Shown here: positions 2,966 to 46,152 of the stretch, in pieces | Numbering within the stretch: position 1 is the stretch's first letter | Layout: the number at the start of each line of letters is the position of its first letter | Origin: an uncultured bacterium | GTDB lineage: Bacteria > Verrucomicrobiota > Lentisphaeria > Victivallales > UBA1829 | Direction: 5' to 3' | Assembly: GCA_949297765.1 (NCBI GenBank) | Contig: CASFTV010000009.1 | Location: 1-64,000, forward strand | Length of the DNA stretch: 64,000 nt | The notes under the pieces: model-generated | What the model was told of the DNA's origin: nothing | Seen by the model: only the letters and a program-made list of their open reading frames with translations | Database searches by the model: none | Program-made: the position numbers and the translations under genes

Positions 2966-5900
2966 ATGAAAACGATCTTCCGATTGGTCTTTTTCTGTCT
3001 GATCTGTGCAGCGGCGGACGCGGCCGTTTCGATCCGTCAGCCGGAGAAAACGGCGTGGACAATGGATCTGACTGATTCGTGCATCCGCGACGGCCGGATC
3101 CGCATGGCAGACCACCTCTCCCGCGAACGCCGGACGGTTTGCGACGATGCCGGCACACTGTTCCGCTGGTCTCTTTCCGTCGATGCGCCGAAGCGGAACG
3201 CTCCCCACGGCCTTCTGCTGGAGTTTGACAACGGCGACGTCGTGGAATCGTTGAAAATCAACGGACAGCCTGCCGTACTGTTCCCCGTGAAAAAACCGTT
3301 CTGGCCCGGCGCGGAGCGGGCGGCTCTTCTGCCGGATGCGGAACAGTACCAGATTGAATTCCGGGTCCGGAATCTGATCTCTCTTTATCCGAATGCGTTC
3401 GGGCGGCTTTCCCTGCGCCCGGCAACCATCAACGATGTTTTTGTTCTGGAACGGGATCCCCGGGAACAGGGAAAAATCACGCTCAGGAACCGCGGCTGGA
3501 AAACGGAACGAACCATTCTCCACGCCGCCAGCACCGACTTTTTCGGAGTTCCTCTATCCGAAGAGCGTTTCTCGCTGGAACTGAAGCCGGGAGAACGGAA
3601 AGCGGTCCGCATCCGGATCGTTCCGCACCGCTGGGTGACCGAATATCGTCTGGAACAGGGAGATCAGCGTTCCTGGTCCTGGCGGGACTATCCGCGTCCG
3701 GACCAGTGGTTTCCGGAGCGGGCGGAAGCCGTTCCGATTCTCTCCGGCTGGGAAAAACAGCCGGGCGGAAGTTCCGCCGAACGGGGACCCCTTCCCGGAA
3801 ACGGATGGGAAACGGCGGGAAAATTCCCGCTGATGCTGGATCCGAAACAGGAGAAGAGCCATTTTTTCTGGCTTCGGACCCGGGTAACGGTTCCGAAGGA
3901 ATGGACGGGAAAGGAACTGTATCTTGCATTTCCGATGGTCCACTTCAAGGCGGATCTCTTTCTGAACGGGACGGAACGGGGAAGCGTGTTTCTGTGGAAT
4001 ACGCCCTCGAGGATCCGGATCTCGGACTGGGTGCGGGCCGGAGAGAGCTTTGAACTGGCGCTCTGCATCACGGACTACACGGCGGCGCTCCTGAAAGGGA
4101 CGAAAATGCCGGAAGCGGGGATTTACGGAGCGCCGTCCCGCAGTCTGACAGCGGCGGTGGGACACTTTCCCGCCGGCGGGATTCCGGGATTGAAATCGCC
4201 GCCGGAACTTCTGGCGCTTTCCCCGGTCCGGACCGACCATGTTGCGATCCGGAGCACGGTCACGGGCGGACCGCGGCTGGACGTGGATTTCGAACTGCGC
4301 AACGAAACACCGGGCGGACAGGATGTCCGCATGGAATGGGAGGTTCTCCGGCAGGGACGGCGCATATTTCAAATTCCGCCGGAAACCCTCCGTCTGAACG
4401 CGGGAGAAACACGCCGCATCCGACGGAGCAGAACCTGGACGGATCCGGAGTTCTGGACGCCGGAAACCCCCGTTCTGTATGAACTGCGGACCACGCTGCG
4501 GGATCCCGCAGGAAAGATTCTGGATCTCCGCCGGGAGAGGTTCGGATTCCGGGAACTCGGAATCCGCGGAAACCATTTTACGCTGAACGGGGACCCGGTC
4601 CGTTTCTACGGATTCAGCCAGACGACCCCCAAGACCATGACATGGCCGTTTGTCCCTCAGCCGCTGACCATGTTCCGCTATCATTTTCATGATGACGGAT
4701 ATTATATGGGAGGCATCGGCCATGTCCGGATCGGCGACGAACTCGGGATCTTCAGCAAGGCGGAAAATCTCTCCCACAATGCGCATCACGGGGAGCGGTT
4801 TGCATATCAGGATCCGGTCACATGGGAACGGCTTTACGGAGAGATGTCGCATGTGATCCGGGCCGTCTGCAACGCGCCCTCCATCGCATTCTGGGATATC
4901 GGAAACGAGAATAAATTCTCCGCGCCGGGTGAATCGGAAAAGATGGGAGAACTCTTTCGCCGGATTTCGGAACTGGACCCCACGCGCCATGTCACAATCA
5001 GCGGAGGGCATCCGCTTCCGAAAGGAGACTCCGTCCGGCTTCTGGATACACATGGATGGTGCGACATCTCTGCGGAAACATGGTTCTTCCTGCATCCGGA
5101 AAAGCGTCCGGAAAACCGAAAGAATTCCGGACGGTATAATTTCATTCCATCCGGCGAGGACCCCGCCCGCTGGGACGAGGGGCGCAGTTTCTCCTCCACC
5201 TTCGACACCCATTCCTATAAGAGCAATCTTCTGCACTTCCGCAACCTTCCGGTCTTTTTCAGCGAGAGCATGTATCTTCACGCGCACTATCTTCCGGGAC
5301 TGCATGGGGAATCGATCTATACGCCGGGCGTCAGCAGAAGTTATCAGCTGAATCCGAATCTTTCGGGACGCCGCTGGATGCTGCGGATGACGAGGAGAGC
5401 CGATGTCGCCGCAACCCTCGGCCATGTCGCCCGCTTCCATGGACGGGAATGTGCGCCGCTGGCGGCGTTTTCATCCGACTTCCGCCTCCGCTTCCGCTCC
5501 GGGGAGCGTCTGATCCTGCCCTTTGATCTCTACAATCAGACCTCCCGCGCCGATCGGGTCCGGATCCGTCTGACGCTGAGAGAAAACGGAAAGACCGCCG
5601 CCGTCCGGGAACGGCAGCTTCCGCTCGGACCGTATGCGAAACAGACTCTTGCATTCGATTTCGGCGAACTGCGTGCGGAAACGGAGGACCGCCGGTTTGA
5701 TCTGCTTGTTTCCGTCGAAGGCAGATCCGGCGCCGCATTCGAGGATTGGGAGGAGATCTCCCTCTACAAACCGGAACGCTTCGACGGGAAAACCACACCT
5801 GTTCCCGATGTTCTGGACCCGTCCGGCATTCTTTCCCGCTGGATGACGGAAAAGGGAATCCGCCATCATCGTCTGGCCTCCAGCGGCGACTGGAAGGGCG

Positions 5901-11762: not shown

Positions 11763-12500
11763 ATGAAAATCATGCGAAGGAAAATATTTACCATCATTGA
11801 ACTTCTTGTTGTTGTTTCCATTCTTGCAATTCTTGTTGCTCTGCTTCTTCCTGCGCTGAATTCTGCGCGGGAAAAAGCGAAGGAGATCACCTGCACCAGC
11901 AATCTGAAACAGATCGGGACAGCCTCCTTTTCCTATTCCGACGACAACGACGGAAGACTGCCGCAGGCGGCGGACGATGCCTCCGCCATCCTTGCCAAAC
12001 ATCTGGCGAACTACATGGGAACAGCGGAATATACGCTGGAGCAGAAAGGGGTCTGGTTCTGTCCCAGCTACGAGAAACTTCCGTCCGACAACGGCACAAC
12101 GCAGTATTACGGCTCCTACAATCCCATCAATGTCCACAACTACGCTCTCGGCGCCGGATGGTATGGCAGCGGAGACACCGCCATGATGCAGCTCGGCACG
12201 GCCAAACTCTCCATGCTGGAACCCTCCATTTTTCTTCTGAGCAACAAAAAACCGGAATACTTCTGGAGTGCGATGGGCAATGTCGGTCCGCGCGCTCCGC
12301 TGACGAAGGAGCAGCTGGTTCCGGAAACGGGAGAGGCTATGCAGGAATCCATGACAACGCTGTTTGTCCATCAGGGATATGCGCCGTTTTTCAAAGTTTC
12401 CGGCGCGGTCATCAGCCGCAGAATCGGAACGCTGAAGAAGACCTACCGCAATCCCGGAGAAAAATACGGTCCCGGATGGATCGCCATCTTCGAGCCTTAA
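11763..12500 (+). CDS. Pseudopilin (prepilin-type N-terminal domain)
   Basis: This 245-residue protein starts with a five-to-six-residue basic leader and then [11 protein letters not shown], the hydrophobic prepilin helix with the conserved glutamate at +5, ending in [14 protein letters not shown]. The rest is a globular domain with [20 protein letters not shown], shared by the pseudopilins in this window. The residue before the predicted cleavage site is isoleucine, not glycine. Such proteins assemble into short periplasmic pseudopili of type II-like systems or stay in the inner membrane. The H-X9-DG motif near the C-terminus is not evident in this copy. The secreted glycosidase gene follows 27 bp later and is probably co-transcribed. 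Confidence 0.87.
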
Positions 12501-38828: not shown

Positions 38829-41800
38829 ATGCCGGGGGAAATCAGCTCCACAGTTCCCTGGAACGCCACTTGGAAACAGACGATGAAAGAAGAGACTCTC
38901 ATGATGAAAACCCTATCCGCCGCGGGAAATTCCGCGCCGGCACCGGAGACATCGGACCGGCCGGTTCCTTCTTCCTCTCCCGCCGAACCGGGGAAACCGG
39001 AGTCCGACAAGGATGAGACGGCCGGTTTTTCGGCGGAACTCTCCTTTCTCCCGTTTTTCAATCTGGCGCTTCAGCAGAACGCCTTTCCGATCCACTCCGA
39101 TCTGACGCTGATCAACAAGACCGGACATCGGCTGGATTCGATCCGCTGTGAAATTTCCACGACTCCCGCCTTTCTCTCACCGAAGACCGTCATTGCGGAG
39201 TCGCTGGAAAACGGAGAAGAACGGCTGATCAGCGAACTGGATGCGGTTCTGGATTACGATCTTCTGAGTTCGCTTTCCGAAGCGGTGAAAGGGAAACTGA
39301 AACTGGAAATTTTTCATGGGGACACGCGCCTCCTTCTCCGGGAATACGAGGTGGAGGCGTTCGCCGCGGACCAGTGGCTCGGCCTCAACCGTCTGCCGGA
39401 ACTTCTGGCTTCATTTGTCACACCGAATCTGGATGTGGTGAACCGGCTTCAGAGCGTTGTTTCGGACGAGCTGAAGGCGGCCACGGGAGACCCTGCCATT
39501 CAAGGCTATCAGGCGGACAGGGATCGCGTTTACGAGATCTGTGCGGCGATCTACCGCGCCATCCATTCGTGGGGGATCCGGTATGCCAATCCGCCGTCGT
39601 CATTCGGTCCGCCGGGACAGCGGGTGCGGTTTGCGGACACGATCTATCAATACCGGCTGGGGACCTGTCTGGATACGGCTCTTCTGTTTGCCTCGGTGAT
39701 GGAGCAGTGCGGTCTGCATCCGGTGCTTCTGCTGCAGGAGGGGCACGCCTATGTCGGCTGCCATCTGGTGAACCGGTATTTTTCCGACATTCCGATGGAC
39801 GATCTGCAGATCATCCGCAAGCTGGCGGACCTGGATGAGTTCCTCGTCATCGAGACGACAAAAGTCACTGGAGACACCCCGTTTTCCGTTGCTGAAGCCG
39901 TCGCGCGCACGGAGCACCTGAATATCGACAACAAGTTCCAGTGTGCCATCGACATTGTCCGTGCGCGGTACAGCGGAATCCGTCCGCTTCCGCTGCGGCG
40001 CAGCGTGAACGGCATTGCGTTCGAGGAAGAGGAAAAACGGGACGTTTCCGAACTGGAACGGGAACCACGCAGGGAACTGCAGAAGGACATTGATCTCTCC
40101 GGATTCGAAAACCGGGAGGAGCGGTCGGGACGCGTGGCGCGCTGGAGCCGGAAACTGCTGGATCTCTCTCTGCGCAACCGTCTACTGAATGTCCGGGACA
40201 CCCGGCAGGTCATCCCGATCGTCTGTTCCGACATCACGGTTCTGGAGGACCGGATTGCGGCGGACGAAATGCTCTCCCTCCATCCGCTTTCGAATCTTCT
40301 CAGCGAGAAGGATCAGCACGATCTGGCGATGCTCCGCAACAGCAATGTCAAAAACGAGATTCAACTTCTTCTGGACAAGGAACTTGCGCAGCGGCGGCTC
40401 TGGACTCTCCTTTCTCCGCTTGAACTGGGCCGGCGCCTGACCGCGCTCTACCGTCAGGCGAGGATCGATCTGGAGGAAGGAGGAGTGAACACGCTGTTTC
40501 TGGCGGTCGGCTTTCTGGAGTGGAAGATTTCGGAGCGGGAGGAGAAATCCTTTCTTGCGCCGATTCTCCTGATTCCGATCCGCCTGCAGCGCCGATCCAT
40601 TGCGGAGGGAATCCGCATTGCCCGGATCGACGAGGATACGGTCATCAATGAGACGCTTCTGGAACTTTTGCGAACCCAGTTCCAGCTCACGATCCCGGGC
40701 GTCGTCCCGCTGCCGGCCGACGAATCCGGAGTGGATGTGAAACTGGTCATGCAGATTTTCCGGCAGTCAATCCGGAACATGAAAGGCTGGGAAGTCCGCG
40801 AAGAGGCGCGGATCGGCCATTTCTCATTCGGCAAGTTCCTCATGTGGAACGACATGACCGCCCGCATTGACGATTTGAAACGAAATCCCCTGATCCGTCA
40901 TCTGATGGAGGGCGGCGGAATCTTCGACGACGGCATCGAAGTGTTTCCGCCCGAAGAAGTTGCCCGTCATCTGAAGCCGGAGGAACTCTACTGTCCGCTG
41001 AGTGCCGATTCCTCCCAGCTCGCGGCCGTTCTCTATTCCCGGACCGGGAAAAGCTTTGTTCTCCACGGCCCGCCGGGGACCGGGAAGTCGCAGACCATCA
41101 CCAATATCATTGCGCACAATCTCGCCCACGGACGGCGCGTGCTGTTCGTTTCGGAAAAGAAGGCCGCACTGGACGTTGTCCATCGCCGTCTGAGTTCCAT
41201 CGGTCTTCGTCCGTTCTGCCTGGAACTGCACTCCAGCAAATCCGGGAAAGCCGAGGTGCTCGCCCAGTTTTCCGAGGCGCTGCACATTCCGGATACTCCG
41301 TATCCCGGGACCTGGGAAACCGCCGCGAAATCTCTGGAAACGCTCCGGGATGAACTGAACGAATATGTTGCGGAACTGCACCGGCAGTTCCCGAACGGAC
41401 GTTCCGCCTATGATTGTTTCTCCCGGCTGTTCCGGGGCGGGCCATCCCTGCCCGAAGGTTCGCTGAACATCGACTGTCTGAGCCAGAGCCGGACGGAACT
41501 GGAGGCTCTGCGCTCTCTGGTCCGGGATCTCGGAAACGCATGGAACGGCACCGATCCCGAAGCGGCGGCGGCATTCCGCGAACTTTCCGTGACGGACTGG
41601 AGCCCGGTTTTCGAAAAGGAGTTTCTGACTGCCGCTGAAGCGCTTCTGAAGAGTGCGGAGAAACTGGAAACCTGTTTCACGGAACAGGCGGCGGAACTCC
41701 GTCTCCCGCCGGATCCGCGAATCGAACGCATCTATCGGACCGCACTTCTGCTGGAACATCTCAAAAGCGGCGGCAGCGTTCCCGCCGCCTTCCTGACCGA

Positions 41801-44800
41801 GGAGTTTGCACAGCAATCCGGATTCCTGAAAAATTTTGCGGAAACGATGCTGCGCAGGAGAGAGCTGGCCCGGACACTCCGGAACTATCATACGGAACGG
41901 CTGAACGATCTGGATCTGTCCGGAATTGCGCACCGGATTGAAGAGAACAGCCGGGCGTTTTTCCTGATCCGTTTTCTGAAGAACAGAGCTCTTCTGAAGG
42001 AACTCTCCGGCATCAGGAAGATCGGCGGAGGCAGGCTGAGCATTCCGGAATTGCTCCGGCAGCTTCCGGATTTTGAATGCTGGGTCAAGCTCTCTGCGGA
42101 TCTCGCCGACGGCAGCTCCCGGGCGGAAAAACTGCTGGGAAATCTGTGGAACGGCGGAGAACCGGACTGGGATTCCCTCACTCCGCTTGTCGGCCGGGCG
42201 CAAAAGACGCTGGAACTGGCCAAAGCGGCGGCGGAGAACAATCCCGACCAGGAAAATGAGCTTCTGGAAACTCTGCGGCTTCTTCTCCCGGATGCGGAGC
42301 GCCGCTTCGGAAAAGAGGCTCCTGCCCGGAAAAAAATAAACGCTCTGCTGACCGCATGGAACGATTTTCAGGAAAAGCAGACGGCCTTTGCCTCCTACGC
42401 ACTCGGAATCACGGAAAAAGACTCGCTGACGGAAATCCGCGATGCCGTCCGGACAATCATCGCCCGCCGCGACGGACTGCGGGGAGCGCTGCGCTACCGC
42501 AAGCTGCGCGACGAGGCCGGCGGACAGGGGATTTCCGCCTTTGCGGAAGCGCTCGAAAACGGGACGGTGAAACGTGCGGAAATCGCGGACGCATTCGAGC
42601 GGGCCTTTCACGAGGAGATGCTGAATCAGATTCTGGCACGCACGCCTCTTCTCTGCAGTTTTTCCGGGACCGCACGGGAGGAGCGCATCCGGAAATTCTG
42701 TGAACTGGATGCGAACTATACCGCCCTTTCCCGACAGGTGATTTTTGCCCGTCTTGCCTCTGCCCTTCCGCGCCGCCGCTCCGGACCGTGTCCGGAAGGG
42801 ACCGAGCTGGGAATTCTGAAACGGGAATGTGAAAAGAGAGCCCGTCAGAAACCGGTCCGGCGTCTGCTGGAGCAGATTCCGACTCTGGCACCGGTTCTGA
42901 AACCGTGTTTTCTGATGAGTCCGCTTTCCGTTGCGCAGTATCTCCCGCCCGATGCGGAGCCGTTTGACCTGATCGTTTTCGATGAAGCGTCGCAGATTCC
43001 GGTCTGGGATGCCATCGGAGTGATTGCCCGCGGACGGCAGCTGATCGTTGTGGGCGATCCCAAACAGATGCCGCCCTCCGACTTCTTCCAGAAGGGGGAG
43101 AATGACGAAAACGCCCCCCTCCCCGAAGAGACGGAGGATCTTGAAAGCATTCTGGATGAATGTATTGCCGCCGGCGTTCATCCGACCTATCTGAACTGGC
43201 ACTACCGGAGCCGTCATGAATCGCTGATCTCCTTCAGCAATCACTATTATTACGAGGACCGGCTGTTCACGTTCCCTGCGGCGCGTGACTCTGAACGGCT
43301 TGGAGTCCGCTTTGAATTTGTACCGGACGGAGTCTACGACCGCAGAGGGACCCGCACCAATCGTCAGGAGGCGGAAGCTCTTGTCCGCTATGTCTTTGCG
43401 CGTCTGGAAAATCCGGACTGGAAGCCGCGCAGCATCGGTGTGGTCACCTTCAGTCAGGCGCAGAAGGAACTGATCGAGGACCGGATGGAGGAGGAGCGGG
43501 CCCGCCACCCCGGTCTGGAGTCTTATTTCAGCGACCGGAATGAAGAACCGCTCTTCGTCAAGAATCTGGAAAATGTGCAGGGGGATGAGCGGGATGTCAT
43601 ACTCTTTTCCGTCGGCTATGCTCCGGACATGGAGGGAAAATTCTCCATGAACTTCGGTCCGCTGAACCGCAAGGGGGGAGAGCGCCGTCTGAATGTGGCG
43701 ATCACCCGGGCCAGAGAGCAGGTTGTTGTTTTTTCGAGCATCCACGGGCATCAGATTGATCTCTCCCGGACGGGAGCTGTCGGAGCGGCTCATCTCAAAT
43801 ACTTCCTCGACTACGCGGAAAAAGGCATCCGCATTCAACCGAAGAGCGCTGCCGGGGTCCGCCGGGACGGACTGATCGACACCATTGCGGAATTCCTTGA
43901 AAATCATAATTTTACAGTGGAACGGAACATCGGCTGTTCCGGCTGCAGAATGGATCTTGCGGTCCGCCGTCCGGACCGGCCGTCGGAGTTCCTTCTGGGG
44001 ATCGAATGCGACGGAGCCGCCTATGCCGCGCAGAAAACAACCCGCGACCGGGATAATCTGCGCACCTCCGTTCTCCGCCGTCTCGGCTGGCACATCTACC
44101 ATGCCTGGAGCGTCGACTGGGCGTTCGACCGGGCACGCGCCGAACAGGCTCTCCTGAACTTGATTGAAACGATCCGGAACGCCCCGGAGCCTCCTGTCGA
44201 AGAAAAGAGGGAACCCGTTCAGAATCAAGATGTTTCACCTTGTGAAAAAGCCCGGATTCCCGATCCGCCTCCGCCGTCCCGCCCACCCGAACACCGCCGG
44301 GAGTATTCCGTCTGGATCCATTCGGAAGTTCTGGCGCAGGAGTCCTTCTACGATCCGGCCGCACTGGAGCAGATCCGTCGGCAGATGCGCGATGTCATAC
44401 AGACAGAAGGCCCTGTCTGCGAACAACTTCTGAAAAAACGGATCGTCAAGGCCTGGGGATTCAACCGGACCGGAGAGAATATCCTCGCCATCCTCAACAC
44501 CGCCCTTCCCGGGGAGTTTGAAGTGACACGGATCGGAAGCGACCGCGTCTACTGGCCGTCCGGACAGACTCCCGCAGAGTTTCATGACTACCGGGTCTCT
44601 CCGGAAGGAACCTGGAAACGCTCTCTGGAGGAAATCCCTCCGGAAGAGCTTGCCAATGCCATGTATGAGGTTCTGGTGGATTTCAATTCCTGCGAAAAAG
44701 ACACTCTCTATCGCGAAACGGTCAAACTTTTCGGATTCTCCGCTGTGACGGCAAAAGCCAGAAAATCTCTGGATTCCGGTTTTCTTGCCCTGAAACAGTC

Positions 44801-44813
44801 CGGGAAAATCTGA
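38829..44813 (+). CDS. DUF4011/SF1 helicase/Vsr-like nuclease/DUF3320 protein (Hhe-type defence candidate)
   Basis: This 1994-residue protein has an N-terminal transglutaminase-like segment (GTCLDTALLFASVMEQCG with C280, then EGHAYVG with H306), the DUF4011 signature WSRKLLDLSLRNRLLN near 439, and an SF1 helicase core. The helicase shows P-loop GPPGTGKS near 747, Walker B FDEAS with D1385/E1386, GDPKQMPP, YRSRHESL and NVAITRAREQ. A Vsr-like nuclease follows, with D1709 in MDLAV and E1726/D1728 in GIECDG. DUF3320 forms the C-terminus. This order matches the single-gene Hhe anti-phage system reported among predicted defence genes. The start is uncertain; M19 (38883) and M26 (38904) are alternatives. 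Divergent from the UvrA-like gene. Confidence 0.82.
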   Translation: MPGEISSTVPWNATWKQTMKEETLMMKTLSAAGNSAPAPETSDRPVPSSSPAEPGKPESDKDETAGFSAELSFLPFFNLALQQNAFPIHSDLTLINKTGHRLDSIRCEISTTPAFLSPKTVIAESLENGEERLISELDAVLDYDLLSSLSEAVKGKLKLEIFHGDTRLLLREYEVEAFAADQWLGLNRLPELLASFVTPNLDVVNRLQSVVSDELKAATGDPAIQGYQADRDRVYEICAAIYRAIHSWGIRYANPPSSFGPPGQRVRFADTIYQYRLGTCLDTALLFASVMEQCGLHPVLLLQEGHAYVGCHLVNRYFSDIPMDDLQIIRKLADLDEFLVIETTKVTGDTPFSVAEAVARTEHLNIDNKFQCAIDIVRARYSGIRPLPLRRSVNGIAFEEEEKRDVSELEREPRRELQKDIDLSGFENREERSGRVARWSRKLLDLSLRNRLLNVRDTRQVIPIVCSDITVLEDRIAADEMLSLHPLSNLLSEKDQHDLAMLRNSNVKNEIQLLLDKELAQRRLWTLLSPLELGRRLTALYRQARIDLEEGGVNTLFLAVGFLEWKISEREEKSFLAPILLIPIRLQRRSIAEGIRIARIDEDTVINETLLELLRTQFQLTIPGVVPLPADESGVDVKLVMQIFRQSIRNMKGWEVREEARIGHFSFGKFLMWNDMTARIDDLKRNPLIRHLMEGGGIFDDGIEVFPPEEVARHLKPEELYCPLSADSSQLAAVLYSRTGKSFVLHGPPGTGKSQTITNIIAHNLAHGRRVLFVSEKKAALDVVHRRLSSIGLRPFCLELHSSKSGKAEVLAQFSEALHIPDTPYPGTWETAAKSLETLRDELNEYVAELHRQFPNGRSAYDCFSRLFRGGPSLPEGSLNIDCLSQSRTELEALRSLVRDLGNAWNGTDPEAAAAFRELSVTDWSPVFEKEFLTAAEALLKSAEKLETCFTEQAAELRLPPDPRIERIYRTALLLEHLKSGGSVPAAFLTEEFAQQSGFLKNFAETMLRRRELARTLRNYHTERLNDLDLSGIAHRIEENSRAFFLIRFLKNRALLKELSGIRKIGGGRLSIPELLRQLPDFECWVKLSADLADGSSRAEKLLGNLWNGGEPDWDSLTPLVGRAQKTLELAKAAAENNPDQENELLETLRLLLPDAERRFGKEAPARKKINALLTAWNDFQEKQTAFASYALGITEKDSLTEIRDAVRTIIARRDGLRGALRYRKLRDEAGGQGISAFAEALENGTVKRAEIADAFERAFHEEMLNQILARTPLLCSFSGTAREERIRKFCELDANYTALSRQVIFARLASALPRRRSGPCPEGTELGILKRECEKRARQKPVRRLLEQIPTLAPVLKPCFLMSPLSVAQYLPPDAEPFDLIVFDEASQIPVWDAIGVIARGRQLIVVGDPKQMPPSDFFQKGENDENAPLPEETEDLESILDECIAAGVHPTYLNWHYRSRHESLISFSNHYYYEDRLFTFPAARDSERLGVRFEFVPDGVYDRRGTRTNRQEAEALVRYVFARLENPDWKPRSIGVVTFSQAQKELIEDRMEEERARHPGLESYFSDRNEEPLFVKNLENVQGDERDVILFSVGYAPDMEGKFSMNFGPLNRKGGERRLNVAITRAREQVVVFSSIHGHQIDLSRTGAVGAAHLKYFLDYAEKGIRIQPKSAAGVRRDGLIDTIAEFLENHNFTVERNIGCSGCRMDLAVRRPDRPSEFLLGIECDGAAYAAQKTTRDRDNLRTSVLRRLGWHIYHAWSVDWAFDRARAEQALLNLIETIRNAPEPPVEEKREPVQNQDVSPCEKARIPDPPPPSRPPEHRREYSVWIHSEVLAQESFYDPAALEQIRRQMRDVIQTEGPVCEQLLKKRIVKAWGFNRTGENILAILNTALPGEFEVTRIGSDRVYWPSGQTPAEFHDYRVSPEGTWKRSLEEIPPEELANAMYEVLVDFNSCEKDTLYRETVKLFGFSAVTAKARKSLDSGFLALKQSGKI

Positions 44814-44837
44814 TTCCCTCAAAAATCTTCTGACGCG

Positions 44838-44866
44838 TTTGCATTTTCTGCAAATCATTCTATATT
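44838..44866 (+). promoter_or_regulatory. Promoter with inverted repeat before the cysteine-rich gene
   Basis: TTGCAT (44839-44844) and TATATT (44861-44866) have a 16-bp spacer. TTTGCA (44838-44843)/TGCAAA (44849-44854) is a perfect inverted repeat with a 5-bp centre covering the -35, so the promoter may be regulated. Confidence 0.5.
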
Positions 44867-44887
44867 CCTGAAAGGACAAGGAGAAAA

Positions 44888-45112
44888 ATGGACAGCAACG
44901 AAAAACATCCCTGCAACTGCGACTGCGACAACTGCTGCAATCACTGCTGCAATCACTGTTGCGACGATCCCATGAACTGCACCGGAAATAATTCTCTTTC
45001 TTTCGGAGCACTGATCTGGGGAGCAATTAAACTGGCGATTGCCCTTCCGCTGATCTGGTGGCTGTTTCCGCGCCTCCCGATTGTTGAGGATATCATTGCT
45101 CTTTTCCGCTGA
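44888..45112 (+). CDS. Small cysteine-rich membrane protein
   Basis: This 74-residue protein starts with a polar stretch containing ten cysteines between residues 9 and 31 (CNCDCDNCCNHCCNHCC, then C31) mixed with Asp, Asn and His. One hydrophobic segment follows at about 42-62 (IWGAIKLAIALPLIWWLF). It would be a single-pass membrane protein with a metal-binding or thiol-rich N-terminal tail. A ribosome binding site (AAGGAG, five bases upstream) and its own promoter support expression. I do not recognise the family. The next gene encodes a Fur-type metalloregulator about 500 bp away. Confidence 0.7.
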   Translation: MDSNEKHPCNCDCDNCCNHCCNHCCDDPMNCTGNNSLSFGALIWGAIKLAIALPLIWWLFPRLPIVEDIIALFR

Positions 45113-45543
45113 AAATCCACCTCCCGGAATAACGTTCCGAATCATCCGGACGGTGACGTTCAGTCTTTCCGCAAGAGGTTCCGGTACAGCAGTTTTTTCC
45201 TTCTGTTTTCGGACACGGAACATTCCAAACAGCTATCACTCTGCCGCTCTCCGGACGGAAACTGGCACCGAGATTTCCTCGTTTCTTCATGAGCCTTCAG
45301 CCATCGTTTCCGCTTCGTTTTTCCGGTCATTTTCAGATTCCGCCAGCATCGGAAGAGTCTGCGCGTTCCGTTTTCCCCCTGCCAGGGAGTCTGTTTCCCA
45401 TCCGCACATGGGCTGTGCGCCGGACACATTTTCTCCCACAGAAAACCGAACGAGACGCCGAGAATCGCACTCCCCGGAAAGTCGTTTCCTCCGCCACTCG
45501 ATGCCACGGATAAAAAAATTTTTCAAAAAAAAGAAAAACAGAG
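45113..45543. other. Gene-poor stretch without a recognised feature
   Basis: Overlapping open frames on both strands here have no ribosome binding site and no family features, and their translations are rich in Ser, Arg and Pro, which suggests chance. It may be a decayed gene or a non-coding RNA locus, but I see no diagnostic structure. Confidence 0.35.
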
Positions 45544-45572
45544 ATTGACAAATTTGCAAATAAATATTATAT
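45544..45572 (+). promoter_or_regulatory. Promoter of the Fur-family gene with internal palindrome
   Basis: A perfect TTGACA (45544-45549) and TATATT (45567-45572) are separated by 17 bp. The spacer contains the perfect 10-bp palindrome ATTTGCAAAT (45551-45560). Fur-family genes are often autoregulated at such sites. Confidence 0.65.
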
Positions 45573-45615
45573 TTAATTAGATTTCAAATTAATCCAGAAA
45601 GAGAACAGGGATATT

Positions 45616-46152
45616 ATGGGACTTGGGAAACATGCGGAATTCATGAACATCTGCCGGGAATCGGGGTGGAAATGCACAGCGCAGCGACTGGCGGTGTATG
45701 AATTTCTCCAGGGAAATCTTACCCATCCGGATGTGGATACGGTCTGGTCAACGGTGCGGCAGACTCTGCCGACCATCACCCGGGAGAGTATCTACCGGAT
45801 TCTGAATGAATTTTCGGAAAAGGGGATGATCCGTCGTCTGGATCAGATAGAGAACGCCCGCTACGATTCGCGGACGGATGCACACGGCCATTTCATCTGT
45901 CAGCGCTGCGGAAAAATTTCGGATTTCAGCTGGCCGGAGGGGACATCTCTTCCGGCGGAGATGCAGGCGGGAGAAGTCCTTCACATGGAAATCCGGCTGG
46001 TCGGAATCTGCGGAGAATGCCGTGCGGCGGACAAGCGCTCCGACAAACAGAAAGAAAAAACATCCGGTCTCCGGAACGGAGGGCCCGTCGACACCTCTCC
46101 GGCCCGGGACAACACACAACCCCATACAGAGAGAGAAGGAGAAACAACATGA
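45616..46152 (+). CDS. Fur-family metalloregulator
   Basis: This 178-residue protein shows the Fur winged helix (CTAQRLAVYEFLQGNLTHPD, then ITRESIYRILNEFSEKGMI) and the structural zinc site C95-x2-C98 and C132-x2-C135. It could be Fur, Zur or PerR; the sensory ligands do not settle this. A polar C-terminal tail of about 40 residues extends beyond the usual 140-150 residues. The stop codon overlaps the QueD-like start (ATGA), so the two are co-translated. Coupling a Fur-family repressor to a pterin-synthase homologue recalls the Zur-controlled QueD/FolE paralogues of other bacteria. Confidence 0.87.
   Translation: MGLGKHAEFMNICRESGWKCTAQRLAVYEFLQGNLTHPDVDTVWSTVRQTLPTITRESIYRILNEFSEKGMIRRLDQIENARYDSRTDAHGHFICQRCGKISDFSWPEGTSLPAEMQAGEVLHMEIRLVGICGECRAADKRSDKQKEKTSGLRNGGPVDTSPARDNTQPHTEREGETT

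Follow-up and report, generated by a model that had tools for sequence, protein, structure and literature searches.

Type I toxin peptides such as TisB, Ldr and Fst are short and hydrophobic and carry charge within the membrane helix, and the morons of prophages include small membrane proteins that act in superinfection exclusion. A moron, as one published account defines it (PMC2629481), is an independently expressed gene inserted in a phage operon; such a gene has its own promoter and terminator, is dispensable for phage growth and alters the lysogen. A further comparison is offered by the cysteine-rich transmembrane module of eukaryotes (CYSTM), in which a very short protein combines one membrane helix with an adjoining dense run of Cys; work on CYSTM (PMC10217909) indicates that small Cys-rich membrane proteins of this kind can act in metal stress.

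The small gene described here, at 44888-45112 of the window (the whole stretch of DNA that was analysed, 64,000 nucleotides), can be set beside all of these. Like a prophage moron it is small, has its own promoter-like leader and, in its prophage copy, runs on the strand opposite to the tail genes, in a slot that related prophages leave empty or fill differently. However, no prophage is recognised around three of the four known copies, and one copy is Cys-tailed. Insertion in a phage operon, with absence from that place in related phages (G168, G195, G043 and G167), was found for one copy only, that on contig C72 of the same genome; as to independent expression, the promoter-like leader is conserved, and no terminator was found beside the window copy. 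The protein resembles CYSTM in its brevity, single helix and adjoining Cys run but differs in being bacterial and in having an N-terminal, repeat-built tail; 0 Pfam families, CYSTM among those sought, were matched at E 0.1, and the search for a bacterial metallothionein family gave 0 Pfam and 0 NCBIfam families. With the type I toxins it shares a short hydrophobic peptide with charge in the helix but not evidence of an antitoxin RNA. The reading that we favour, with a probability of about 0.5, is that the gene encodes a small, moron-like membrane peptide that derives from a phage and has been retained in host chromosomes; its Cys tail would be a recent, repeat-made addition with a candidate metal or redox role.

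A gene in two parts

The features of the locus are as follows.

38829-44813, + strand: upstream neighbour, a 1994-residue DUF4011/AAA/MTES_1575/DUF3320 helicase-nuclease matching PADLOC PDC-S37, a candidate defence protein (1252 bits); context
44838-44866, + strand: promoter-like element (TTTGCA, 17 nt, TATATT; match 9/12), overlapping the inverted repeat
44838-44854, + strand: inverted repeat TTTGCA-N5-TGCAAA, the sole match in the window at up to one mismatch (0.08 expected)
44878-44883, + strand: Shine-Dalgarno-like AAGGAG 5' of the ATG, kept in relatives
44888-45112, + strand: whole ORF, ATG start, 74 residues, TGA stop included
44888-44911, + strand: first copy of the ancestral start (MDSNEKHP), with 18 of 24 bases as in the C72 start (letter-shuffle p 0.00017, codon-shuffle p 0.005)
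44912-44971, + strand: Cys tail of five 12-nt tandem units (CNCD CDNC CNHC CNHC CDDP), absent from all relatives found
44972-45112, + strand: 46-residue core (MNCTGNNSLSFG...DIIALFR), which contains one membrane helix and is a homologue of the complete 46-residue proteins at C72, G002 and G003

The initial annotation had described a 74-residue membrane protein with ten N-terminal Cys, and the ORF, the Cys positions and a scan of the window confirm it. The Cys are residues 9, 11, 13, 16, 17, 20, 21, 24, 25 and 31, so that residues 9-31 hold all ten, and the membrane helix is C-terminal to them. Among stop-free 23-residue stretches in the six frames, this ORF has the top Cys density of the window, at 10; the runners-up, with 8 each at 11807 and 16644, both lie across larger ORFs read in a different frame or from the opposite strand, and the peak in 10 first-order Markov controls was 5-7. 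AlphaFold2, given a four-row alignment, predicts a helix at 40-62 and a short helix at 64-73 (block pLDDT about 70-78) and leaves the Cys tail unstructured (pLDDT 45-52), the model being weak because the mean pLDDT is 61. The gene is real and narrow in range and, as comparison of its copies has it, is composed of two parts, a 46-residue core and an added Cys tail.

The core family

A DNA search of the window's own genome found promoter and core again on contig C72 (core 86%, leader 78%), and a core profile matched the two copies of that genome (contigs C9 and C72), contig C32 of G002 and contig C24 of G003 at E 1e-31 to 1e-33. Among 197 genomes of the class, 81 matched at E<=1 and just three below 1e-30; these three, G000 with two copies plus G002 and G003, belong to a single genus. 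The fourth genome of the genus, G001, gave a weak core match only (0.0995, inside a 751-residue frame), and the next best match, in G147 (0.006), was judged to be chance given 197 genomes searched. A core scan of genome_contigs returned two contigs only, equal in length to those of G003 and G002. No core homologue was found in the phage and plasmid collections, nor in viral_contigs by profile (24 pattern stretches, none confirmed) or DNA pattern. Searches with the protein of Pfam (E 0.1), NCBIfam, PHROGs, PADLOC and PDB sequences gave no family match, and a literature search found nothing on the family.

All three relatives (C72, G002 and G003) are 46 residues long, start MNCDEN and lack the Cys tail, and all three keep the leader and the Shine-Dalgarno sequence. 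The window core differs from that of C72 by 20 substitutions, 13 of them at third positions, with a dN/dS of 0.14; for the other five pairs the ratio is 0.39-0.40 in four and 0.63 in the closest, a pattern of purifying type as read from alignments in which the ratios rest on few changes because only four copies are known. The ratios in one antisense frame resemble the sense-frame values, so the call of strand rests on the start, the Shine-Dalgarno sequence and the leader.

Genomic places and the prophage link

On C72 the gene is part of a prophage tail cluster, where it runs antisense directly before the tape-measure gene, with a short ORF ending at 5372 on one side and the tape-measure protein (PHROG 9959, E 3e-41) starting at 5537 on the other; the contig, 10 kb in length, belongs to a draft genome and may be mis-binned. 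G003 and C72 agree over 300 bp at 89%, a stretch that takes in the core, about 33 bp past the stop and, from the 5' end of the tape-measure gene, about 83 bp. Directly beside this 300-bp phage remnant in G003 is a CRISPR-like array (L009, 29-561; eight copies found, 66-bp spacing). The G002 copy sits between two ORFs that, read by eye, are sugar-hydrolase-like. The window copy begins 74 bp past the PDC-S37-matching protein, whose C-terminal 394 residues were found in its own genome only, one of the four of the genus, and in none of three sister genomes; a search of one library of papers gave 0 hits for PDC-S37. Defence features adjoin the window copy (the PDC-S37 gene) and the G003 copy (the CRISPR-like array) and not the G002 copy.

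In the prophages of other genera the slot before the tape-measure gene is without the small gene in G168, G195 and G043 and holds other small ORFs in G167. The G167 slot (L069, reverse complement, about 1298-1476) has two small hydrophobic ORFs, one per strand, and inspection by eye shows a Shine-Dalgarno-like site for the antisense ORF. Small genes for membrane proteins may recur at this slot. In G001 a tape-measure gene with 97% identity to the C72 one runs from base 1 of contig C22 (L067); the slot is unreadable because the gene starts at the contig edge, and the small gene may be missing from this genome through assembly only. A search of viral_contigs with the tape-measure protein yielded no related phage.

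The inverted repeat and the Fur-family promoter

An inverted repeat, TTTGCA/TGCAAA, had been noted in the small-gene promoter, and it is indeed present at 44838-44854, where it overlaps the -35-like element TTTGCA. As a promoter the match is weak when set against shuffles (two sites in the region, shuffle mean 0.9), and about 21 nt separate the -10-like box from the start codon. The repeat is imperfect in the other copies of the small gene. Read in the direction of the tape-measure gene, the C72 leader is GGTTTACGCAAAATGCAA, which spans the tape-measure ATG, and the same 18 bases precede the tape-measure gene of G167, which belongs to another family and whose core-profile matches are weak and on other contigs. 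From these comparisons the repeat of the window is best read as a mutated tape-measure start region in antisense.

The repeat had also been likened to a palindrome in the downstream Fur-family promoter. That likeness does not hold up, as it amounts to a short common word, ATTTGCAAAT, which is absent from the same promoter in all five relatives. No conserved operator common to the small gene and the Fur promoter, as expected of a Fur/Zur regulon, was found, and co-regulation through a shared metal operator is rejected, the word being absent from the relatives and the palindrome apparently phage-derived. The Fur-family promoter (window 45544-45592; TTGACA, 17 nt, TATATT) does contain an element, TTATATTTA, that is kept in all six rows, the window and the five relatives, and this is a candidate self-regulation site of the Fur-family gene. 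The Fur-family gene and a PTPS-like gene are adjacent in 5 of the 5 relatives fetched (G001, G002, G003, G007 and G013); in three sister-genus genomes this pair and the small gene, if there is one, are on different contigs.

Probable origin and possible role of the cysteine tail

A second copy of the ancestral start, with 19 of 24 bases kept, lies at 44972, and its distance from the first, at 44888, is exactly 84 nt, or 7 x 12. Two neighbouring tail units differ by one silent base, and a search of the genome with the tail DNA found only itself. The simplest reading is that the start region was duplicated and a repeat expanded out of ancestral Asn-Cys-Asp codons to form the tail; judged by its distribution among the copies, it is recent and lineage-specific.

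Such an origin leaves room for a neutral tail, in which slippage on the TGC/AAC-rich start would have given an in-frame repeat that has no selected role and is tolerated because the core still works. The 12-nt periodicity, the single silent difference between adjacent units and the confinement to a single lineage all agree with this, but the tail has been kept in frame at a strongly unusual composition and free thiols would usually be costly. We regard neutrality as possible, short of likely.

An unlikely alternative is a tail under selection as a metal or thiol buffer, whose C-[ND]-x-C units would hold Zn, Cu or Fe at the surface of the membrane. Its 23 residues contain ten Cys, two His and several Asp, the repeat units are multiples of 3 nt and leave the reading frame intact, and CYSTM offers a eukaryotic precedent. 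Against this, no metal-regulator site is held in common with the Fur promoter, no known metal-binding family was matched in Pfam or NCBIfam and no metal-transport gene was identified adjoining the small gene. The tail is present in 0 of 3 relatives and so cannot be the core function of the family. The proposal in the initial annotation of a metal buffer or redox tail therefore stands in so far as there is a membrane protein with a Cys-rich tail, but not as an account of the family; homologues of the core were found in three other places, and the Cys tail is in none of these relatives.

Other readings of the core

Of lower probability still is a membrane-active, toxin-like peptide of the type I toxin-antitoxin kind. 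The core, at 46 residues, is hydrophobic, has charge inside its helix, brings its own leader and occurs at several genomic sites, all of which would suit a toxin, but no antisense promoter-like site was found at 44600-45700, there is no Rfam match, the RNA fold is hardly stabler than shuffles (z -1.25) and the interval between the -10-like box and the start is short. A structured or antisense RNA is likewise unsupported by the Rfam and folding results.

More speculative again, and in our view improbable, is that the host took over the phage membrane peptide for membrane defence and that in this lineage 12-nt repeat expansion created a new metal- or redox-sensing Cys domain, which would make this defence or exclusion responsive to metal or oxidation. 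The neighbours in question are the PDC-S37 candidate helicase here and the CRISPR-like array in a sister species.

On the minus strand, a 122-residue ORF at 44855-45223 has an Ala/Val-rich hydrophobic stretch opposite the Cys repeat. That this strand is the real gene is very hard to credit: its frame is open opposite the core in all four copies, and one antisense frame gives similar dN/dS, but the copies do not share conserved DNA on the upstream side of this ORF, the minus strand yielded no promoter-like site there and it is the sense start, Shine-Dalgarno sequence and leader that are conserved.

A proposed moron-like peptide retained in host chromosomes

In the favoured reading, that of a phage-derived, moron-like peptide with a later tail, the 46-residue single-span membrane protein would have originated in a prophage, in the position ahead of the tape-measure gene and antisense to it, and would have moved from phage to chromosome, its leader and reading frame being kept at three unrelated host sites. 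The core would insert in the inner membrane with its acidic N-terminus probably outside, and the charges of this N-terminus weakly suggest that the Cys tail faces outside too. The core may serve as a phage-control peptide, for example in the exclusion of competing phage. The window copy would then have gained its Cys-rich tail through the start duplication and 12-nt expansion set out earlier, and the added segment would bring metal chelation or the cross-linking of neighbouring molecules as a side property, the main one remaining with the core.

On this reading the family would allow the spread of a tiny phage gene into host chromosomes to be followed. It would also make the birth of a Cys-rich segment by repeat expansion traceable, with the tail-free relatives as natural controls. 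A lesson from the promoter is that what looks like a metal-operator palindrome can be a relic of the start of a phage gene.
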